A stretch of 64,000 nucleotides of DNA, taken from Alphaproteobacteria bacterium (GTDB lineage Bacteria; Pseudomonadota; Alphaproteobacteria; Rs-D84). How positions within the stretch are numbered: the stretch's first letter is position 1; every line of letters begins with the position of its first letter. The stretch is taken from NCBI GenBank assembly GCA_017629245.1, contig JAGBXO010000011.1:1-64000 (forward strand), in the 5' to 3' direction. A program made the translations under genes and the position numbers. This document shows positions 631 through 23,290 of this stretch, piece by piece. The notes below the pieces were generated by a model that was not told where the DNA came from, ran no database searches, and was given only the letters and a program-made list of their open reading frames with translations.

Positions 631-653
631 AATTGTTCCCCTTCCCCGAACAC

Positions 654-770
654 AAAGAAAAACCACCAGAAAATTCAGGTGGTCAGGAGGTTGAAGACAA
701 TTTATTGGAATTGTGCTGCTTATTCAATATATTCACAAGCCCTCCTGACCAAGTGGGATTGATCAGGAGA
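654..770 (-). promoter_or_regulatory. Leader with mutually exclusive hairpins (attenuator-like) before the Cys-rich gene
   Basis: On the minus strand ACCACC (683-678) pairs with GGTGGT (667-662), followed by TTTTTCTTT: an intrinsic terminator 23 bases before the TTG start. Its 5' arm is also part of CCTCCTGACCA (690-680), the exact complement of TGGTCAGGAGG (751-741). That segment can instead pair with CTCCTGA (769-763). The three pairings exclude each other, as in terminator, antiterminator and anti-antiterminator arrangements. The pairing is seen in the sequence; the regulatory role and ligand are inferred or unknown. Confidence 0.5.
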
Positions 771-779
771 ATATCGTCA

Positions 780-872
780 GAATAATAAAAACAGCGCATA
801 CATGCGCCACAGATTCTTATTCCGACGCCAACAAACGGGTCTTCACACCCCATCATGGCAACCCGCCATGAC
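780..872 (-). ncRNA. Candidate small RNA or upstream leader segment
   Basis: A sigma70-like promoter reads leftwards (TTGACA at 908-903, about 18 bases, TAAAAT at 884-879). The predicted start near 871 coincides with a perfect 7-bp hairpin, TCATGGC/GCCATGA (871-865 with 859-853). A GGGT/ACCC hairpin follows, and then GCGCATGTATGCGC (807-794) with TGTTTTTATTATT, an intrinsic terminator. This gives a compact transcript of about 90 bases. It may be a free sRNA or the first part of the Cys-rich gene leader. A 57-codon ORF (856-683) crosses the region, but the RNA structure seems the better explanation. Confidence 0.4.
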
Positions 873-875
873 AGA

Positions 876-908
876 ACTATTTTAATAAAGTTAAGAAATA
901 AATGTCAA
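876..908 (-). promoter_or_regulatory. Sigma70-like promoter, leftward
   Basis: TTGACA (908-903) and TAAAAT (884-879), spacing 18 bases. It drives the candidate small RNA/leader and probably the Cys-rich gene. The remaining 909-1088 holds only an imperfect inverted repeat (1028-1035 with 1050-1059), without a T tract. Confidence 0.5.
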
Positions 909-22879: not shown

Positions 22880-22912
22880 TTATCCTCTTAGAATTCATTA
22901 TAATCTAAAAAC

Positions 22913-22941
22913 TTGCAATTTCCAGTATAAAAGGCTATAAT
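22913..22941 (+). promoter_or_regulatory. ssrA promoter
   Basis: TTGCAA (22913-22918), 17 bases, TATAAT (22936-22941). This implies a start near 22948. Confidence 0.75.
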
Positions 22942-22947
22942 AATCGT

Positions 22948-23290
22948 GCTGCTGTGCAGTGATGATTCTGAAGCCGTTGTGAAATAGTCGTTTTGGACTG
23001 GGGGGCGGTACCCCACAGCTCCACCATGATTTGATATGATATTTGGGTCGTATCTGATTATGGGGCTGACATAGATTCGACAGGCGATGAAAGACAAATT
23101 GGTTGAATCCGACATGGCGTCGTTAAAAGCCAACTAAAAACTGAATGGCGATAGAATCGCTGCGAACGACAATGTTCGCCTTGCAATGGCTGCCTAAGAT
23201 GGCGTTGAATATGGTTGGCGATTGTTGACCGTATTCGTTTTAGCAATTGCGGTGTTCGCCGGGTACATGGCACCAGAAATCCCGGCATTT
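22948..23290 (+). ncRNA. ssrA: Circularly permuted two-piece tmRNA (ssrA)
   Basis: The acceptor piece comes first and ends CCACAGCTCCACCA at 23026. A short spacer follows, then the coding piece starting GGGGCTGACATAGATTCGAC at 23062. The 5' GGGGCUG pairs with CAGCUCC of the acceptor piece, which proves the permutation. The proteolysis tag is encoded at 23159-23197: AANDNVRLAMAA followed by TAA, keeping the AANDN start and the hydrophobic Ala-Ala end. A terminator (GCCGGG / CCCGGC, ATTTT) closes the gene at 23258-23290. Permuted ssrA is typical of alphaproteobacteria. End coordinates of the mature pieces are approximate. Confidence 0.93.

Follow-up and report, generated by a model that had tools for sequence, protein, structure and literature searches.

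We find that the leader ahead of a Cys-rich surface gene on the minus strand (908-658) of the window, a 64,000-nt stretch of contig JAGBXO010000011.1, is one copy of a large, multicopy and previously undescribed RNA family in the Candidatus Enterousia group. The 5' part of the leader, a target module consisting of the K loop and the strand that follows it, has, within each individual copy, complementarity to L' and the P5 loop, which make up a 3' antisense module. We think it probable that the leader attenuates transcription by an antisense-type mechanism, with a two-part address particular to its locus.

The window copy is ~215 nt long, and its transcript is predicted from the sequence to start at about position 872. 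Its features are as follows.
908-879, minus strand: sigma70-like promoter, with TTGACA at 908-903, an 18-nt spacer and TAAAAT at 884-879 (11/12 consensus match)
872-852, minus strand: P0, the 5' terminal hairpin, in which 872-865 pairs with 859-852
850-837, minus strand: K hairpin, GGG at 850-848 with CCC at 839-837
845-839, minus strand: target address a, UGAAGAC, in the K loop, complementary to L' at 698-692
834-828 (element 835-828), minus strand: target address b, UUGUUGG, which pairs with the P5 loop at 708-702
827-775, minus strand: P2, a variable hairpin, in which 827-817 pairs with 785-775
about 810-791 (807-794), minus strand: T-tailed hairpin inside P2
769-761, minus strand: segment 1, which forms the P3 hairpin with segment 2
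751-741, minus strand: segment 2, with segment 1 and segment 3 as alternative partners; the sRNA-Xcc1-like module begins here
740-715, minus strand: P4 hairpin, with the conserved loop GAAUAUAUUGAAUAA at 734-720
714-697, minus strand: P5 hairpin, 714-709 with 702-697; its loop CCAAUAA (708-702) is antisense to address b
698-692, minus strand: L', GUCUUCA, antisense to address a in the K loop
690-680, minus strand: segment 3, which pairs with segment 2 as the antiterminator and the counterpart of the sRNA-Xcc1 closing helix
683-658, minus strand: intrinsic terminator, ACCACC (683-678) with GGUGGU (667-662), then a T tract
630-1, minus strand: downstream gene with a TTG start at 630, encoding a signal peptide and then Cys-rich repeats
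P2 differs in length and sequence among copies and is absent from many. The Cys-rich gene runs past the end of the window and contig, and its product has sub-threshold Pfam matches to TNFR_c6 and Ephrin_rec_like.

An initial annotation of this region had described an attenuator-like leader with three mutually exclusive hairpins, and most of that description stands. Its three pairings all hold exactly on the minus strand, over 11 bp for 680-690 with 741-751 (CCTCCTGACCA/TGGTCAGGAGG), over 7 bp for 763-769 with 742-748, and over 6 bp for 678-683 with 662-667, which has the T tract after it. The 11-bp complementarity had been judged unlikely by chance, and among 2000 dinucleotide-shuffled versions of 640-908 just 9 contained any such complement. 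The claim of a structured leader is borne out by the folding of the 269-nt strand, at -95.6 kcal/mol (z = -6.1, with 0 of 200 shuffles as good). The promoter (TTGACA/TAAAAT, 11/12) and the T-tailed hairpin at 810-791 are present, and the TTG at 630 fits as a start, 27 nt past the T tract (the family median is 29 nt). What had been missed are the two long-range pairings, 845-839 with 698-692 and 834-828 with 708-702, and the multicopy nature of the leader. The reading as attenuator-like and undescribed survives; the suggestion of a riboswitch or of protein control gives way to an antisense reading.

The family is large. A DNA search recovered strong copies from the source genome as well as from nearly all relatives. 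A covariance model (R1), made from a 34-copy alignment, matches 10 copies in the source genome, 57 in one relative (G073), 31 in a complete genome (G103) and 27 in another relative (G003). R1 matches occur in 106 of 115 genomes of the genus and in 170 of 190 genomes of the order; in a class-wide sample, 10 genomes outside the order have 1-5 copies each, and the family is also present on five IMG/VR contigs. Enterousia belongs to the reduced-genome order Rs-D84 (PMC12306168). A T tract is present in 110 of 115 copies, and a promoter-like match lies at the expected place in 104 of the 115, versus 11.3 expected. A search of the whole window with Rfam at the gathering score returned only tRNAs and a tmRNA, and the number of families reaching threshold on the leader was zero, in agreement with the earlier word "undescribed". 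This is a family with tens of copies per genome, in most sampled genomes of the order, and it is below threshold for every Rfam model.

The helices of the leader covary. In the 115-copy alignment used for helix counts, which was fitted to the P0, K, P3, P4, P5 and terminator helices, 93% of the cells of these six helices are paired, and both-side changes are found in 32 of 36 pairs versus 25.2 in shuffles; slid controls collapse. In the same fitted alignment, P0 is 96.7% paired (both-side changes in 7/8 pairs), the K stem 98.2%, segment 1 92.3% (7/9 pairs), the P4 stem 97.7% (4/4 pairs) and the terminator helix 83.6% (5/6 pairs). Helices outside the model, segment 2:3 and K loop:L', provide a stronger test. 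In segment 2:3, to which the alignment was not fitted, pairing reaches 93.6% and 7 of the 10 pairs have compensatory changes; column counts give 94.2% pairing for K loop:L'. The initial annotation had conceded that its reading would fall if relatives had no compensatory changes; such changes exist, and refutation by their absence is excluded.

We also compared the duplex energies of own and swapped partners across the 115 copies, using these instead of column counts for the P1a:P5 pairs because they vary in length. Own partners were favored for K loop:L' (z = -30), address b:P5 loop (z = -39) and segment 2:3 (z = -16), and mis-assigned pairs used as controls gave z ~0; the copies are related, so these z-scores overstate independence. 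Segment 2 has two partners, since segment 1:2 and segment 2:3 are both supported by the pairing tests, and segment 3 overlaps the terminator, sharing 3-4 nt with its stem, as the initial annotation had proposed. The mutually exclusive segment 1:2, segment 2:3 and terminator helices covary over the 115 copies. The leader therefore has the hallmark of an attenuator with an intrinsic terminator, exclusive antiterminator and terminator helices that are both conserved.

The two long-range pairings behave as locus-specific recognition codes. Both addresses are shared by none of the 2059 non-tandem pairs of copies from the same genome and by 5 of the 14 tandem pairs (Fisher p = 6e-12, with pairs that are not independent). 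By the strict rule used, the remaining 9 tandem pairs differ in at least one address. Elsewhere in the leader, tandem copies are only 41-64% identical. Tandem leaders that have both addresses in common and have otherwise diverged to 49-64% identity are found at L095, L097, L101, L103 and L119. The reverse case is a pair of leaders from one genome (L124:7515-7665 and L126:4501-4647) that are 100% identical save for the four address patches and an adjacent A/T linker; the 300 nt downstream of them are 96% identical. Such a replacement of matched patches in near-identical leaders is what specificity would call for and structure alone would not.

These observations bear on an alternative that we consider unlikely, namely that the leader is an attenuator acting only in cis, in which the long-range helices hold a shape that a protein or the kinetics of transcription would sense and their sequences drift neutrally. 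Variability is generally greatest in the helices of structured RNAs, and the conserved P4 loop GAAUAUAUUGAAUAA could bind a protein. However, neutral drift fails to account for L124 and L126, in which four matched patches have been replaced while the other ~120 nt remained 100% identical, and it does not account for tandem copies that share addresses even though they have diverged elsewhere like random pairs.

We return to antisense attenuation, for which we propose the following mechanism alongside the anatomy, covariation and address behaviour that we observe. Segment 2:segment 3 closes a three-way junction that contains the antisense module. Pairing between target and antisense, either in cis or through an RNA with the same address made in an earlier round of transcription or by a tandem copy, would favor segment 1:2 and the terminator, and the gene would be off. 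If this pairing is lost or gives way to a competitor, formation of the segment 2:3 junction would weaken the terminator and allow transcription of the surface gene. We infer both the direction of control and the action in trans, and the direction is the least certain element of the model. In nested folding, the difference between the terminator and antiterminator states has a median of -11.8 kcal/mol for the whole leader, -2.2 kcal/mol from segment 1 and +1.0 kcal/mol from segment 2 only. The trend suggests that target-antisense pairing could maintain the terminated state, although this is a weak argument because in nested folding the long-range pairs and segment 2:3 are incompatible, which leaves the pseudoknotted alternative unrepresented.

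A metabolite or ion riboswitch that governs formation of the terminator is improbable. The leader does resemble one in its multiple helices, pseudoknot-like core, unpaired conserved P4 loop, switchable terminator and tandem copies, and, as in riboswitches and trp-type attenuators, its antiterminator and terminator hairpins exclude each other. Unlike these, it has no match to a ligand domain and no conserved leader peptide, and it has locus-specific address pairs, which a riboswitch does not need. No Rfam riboswitch matches it, the genes that follow have no common pathway (surface proteins, XRE regulators, porins), and the relatives in RF02221 (sRNA-Xcc1) precede antirepressors and SymE. The P4 loop is the only strongly conserved part; variability and covariation are both highest in the address pairs. 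For this reason, riboswitch or protein control, as initially suggested, is not the best reading, and it is weakened further by the likeness of the 3' half to sRNA-Xcc1, whose loci look antisense. The behaviour of the addresses fits antisense specificity better than it fits a ligand-binding riboswitch.

The genes behind the leaders are diverse. They fall into Cys-rich secreted proteins with a signal peptide, small XRE/HTH proteins, and outer-membrane proteins or lipoproteins; in distant Alphaproteobacteria the leaders precede porin-like, lipoprotein and prepilin-like genes, among others. Many copies (L087, L106, L116, L117, L119, L120 and L125-L128) stand ahead of XRE/HTH proteins of 70-117 aa, some of which are near-identical paralogues with differing leader addresses. 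An ATG is found within 140 nt in 91 of 115 copies, at a median of 29 nt from the T tract and mostly at 25-34 nt. Two to four copies of the leader may stand in tandem ahead of one gene. We give a small probability to the view that the element is a free-standing sRNA gene and that the surface gene behind it has a promoter of its own. The element has its own promoter and terminator, and sRNA-Xcc1 was discovered as a stable 88-nt RNA in Xanthomonas (PMC2996969). In contrast, a distance of 25-34 nt from T tract to ATG, kept across unrelated genes, is too short for a second promoter, and tandem copies stand one behind another ahead of a single gene. Action as a trans sRNA as the sole role was rejected on the same fixed spacing to the start codon.

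Attenuation by ribosome stalling on a leader peptide, encoded by a small ORF at 683-856 or by a GTG ORF at segment 2, is very improbable and was rejected: the window copy has such an ORF with an SD-like AGGAGGG, but GUG is GCG in many copies, the reading frames differ and are not conserved among copies, and the covariation acts on the RNA.

Among Rfam families, the window leader comes closest to RF02221, sRNA-Xcc1, with a score well below threshold (29.2 bits, E 0.004, against 53 bits). The alignment runs end to end (1-87/87), from segment 2 to just beyond segment 3. A copy on a phage contig (L248) scores 34.1 bits (E 0.038), and a relative (G098) has two matches of 39.7 bits (E 6e-6) and 35.2 bits that coincide with R1 matches. 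In the reverse search, R1 matched the RF02221 loci L272 (E 1.6e-6) and L279 (E 3.6e-5). A search of the whole source genome with RF02221 gave no match. Like sRNA-Xcc1, the window leader has a three-way junction of closing helix, P4 and P5 in a module ordered segment 2-P4-P5-L'-segment 3, with AAUA.../GAAUAA loop parts and a trailing CACC, and its L' and P5 loop are complementary to the loop and flank of an upstream hairpin (z -30/-39 in Enterousia, from the related copies above). RF02221 loci, like the Enterousia leaders, also have an upstream K-hairpin/address target. Unlike sRNA-Xcc1, the Enterousia copies have no downstream target and a terminator instead, are followed by surface and XRE genes in place of antirepressors or SymE, and occur in tens of chromosomal copies. 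We infer homology between sRNA-Xcc1 and the 3' module, with support that is below threshold. At 53 bits, neither the window leader (29.2) nor the best relative (39.7) belongs to the family, and the leader is best filed as an antisense-controlled attenuator that is related to sRNA-Xcc1 without being formally a member of it.

sRNA-Xcc1 has been known since 2010. It accompanies symE in integron cassettes (PMC12444791), and its copies are clustered in Xylella (PMC12189769). The portions of PMC2996969, PMC12444791 and PMC12189769 drawn on here give no antisense target for it on its own transcript. We analysed 25 RF02221 loci from Proteobacteria. The loop of an upstream hairpin is complementary to L' (z = -9.6 over the 25 loci), and the P5 region has complements on both sides, upstream with z = -4.1 and, over the downstream ribosome-binding site, with z = -4.5. 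The genes that follow encode SymE toxins or antirepressors with Bro-N, KilA-N, P22_AR_N or pRha domains, and in phages Aaphi23 and Rac-SA53 the element directly precedes ant. No Rfam family covers the upstream target half. In the RF02221 set, the comparison of own and swapped partners gave no signal for a segment 1-like complement of segment 2 upstream (z -0.9); support for the segment 1:2 alternative is thus limited to Enterousia and does not extend to the wider family. Among phage-like copies, L248, L249, L261 and L270 have one or both addresses repeated just ahead of the start codon; L248 precedes an AntA antirepressor gene and L270 a Bro-N antirepressor gene.

C4 RNAs have a two-part layout with flanking targets. 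From their arrangement of target, antisense and target, the sRNA-Xcc1 loci (L271-L295, L302, L303) may be an unrecognised C4-like system. As in C4 (P1/P7; RF01695, c4-2 RF02944, c4-a1b1 RF03163), short antisense stretches match targets on their own transcript, and the RF02221 loci lie ahead of antirepressor genes as C4 does. The window leader differs from C4 in having no start-codon target, in an intrinsic terminator that adjoins the antisense part and in a gene that is not an antirepressor: the antisense does not face a same-strand antirepressor mRNA, and the window gene is secreted and Cys-rich. In the Enterousia copies, a second target at the downstream ribosome-binding site or start codon gave no signal (z -0.6, +1.5), and these copies thus lack the classical step of C4 repression. 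Membership in C4 by covariance model (RF01695, RF02944, RF03163) was rejected, the only match being to c4-a1b1 at 11.5 bits (E 3.5). At one sRNA-Xcc1 locus, a sub-threshold c4-2 match (L280:2890-2958, 34.8 bits, cut-off 41) lies ~1.3 kb from the element that precedes a P22_AR_N antirepressor gene.

In the immunity of phage P4 by CI RNA and in prophage leaders of the IsrK type, RNA-RNA pairing controls premature termination in the leader, and one central antisense segment has sequence-related partners upstream and downstream. The resemblance of these to the window leader is functional only. The function of c4 has been described as antisense control with sequence-specific immunity groups (PMC12197685).

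The best reading of the origin of the leader is that an antisense cassette like sRNA-Xcc1 and C4 was turned into a locus-specific attenuator of surface genes. More tentatively, we speculate that a reduced-genome gut lineage converted a phage- or integron-type antisense immunity RNA into genome-wide orthogonal switches whose addresses diversify under selection against cross-talk, and that sRNA-Xcc1 is the antisense half of an ancestral C4-like system. If so, tens of genes for surface proteins and regulators would each be under their own RNA address pair, and the logic of RNA-based phage immunity would have been reused for orthogonal switches of cell-surface genes in host-associated bacteria. 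The widespread sRNA-Xcc1 family would gain a concrete, testable function, with an upstream target half that is outside every Rfam family. Such naturally occurring orthogonal address pairs would, in addition, offer a model of antisense specificity.

Of the four closest leader copies in the source genome, three are at contig ends (window:1-872, G000 C1:223-440 and G000 C6:135444-135655), which suggests that the repeated surface genes behind the leaders break the assembly there. Elsewhere in the window, the alphaproteobacterial tmRNA model and the permuted one both match the tmRNA at 22909-23287, which would be expected of the two-piece form found in Alphaproteobacteria.
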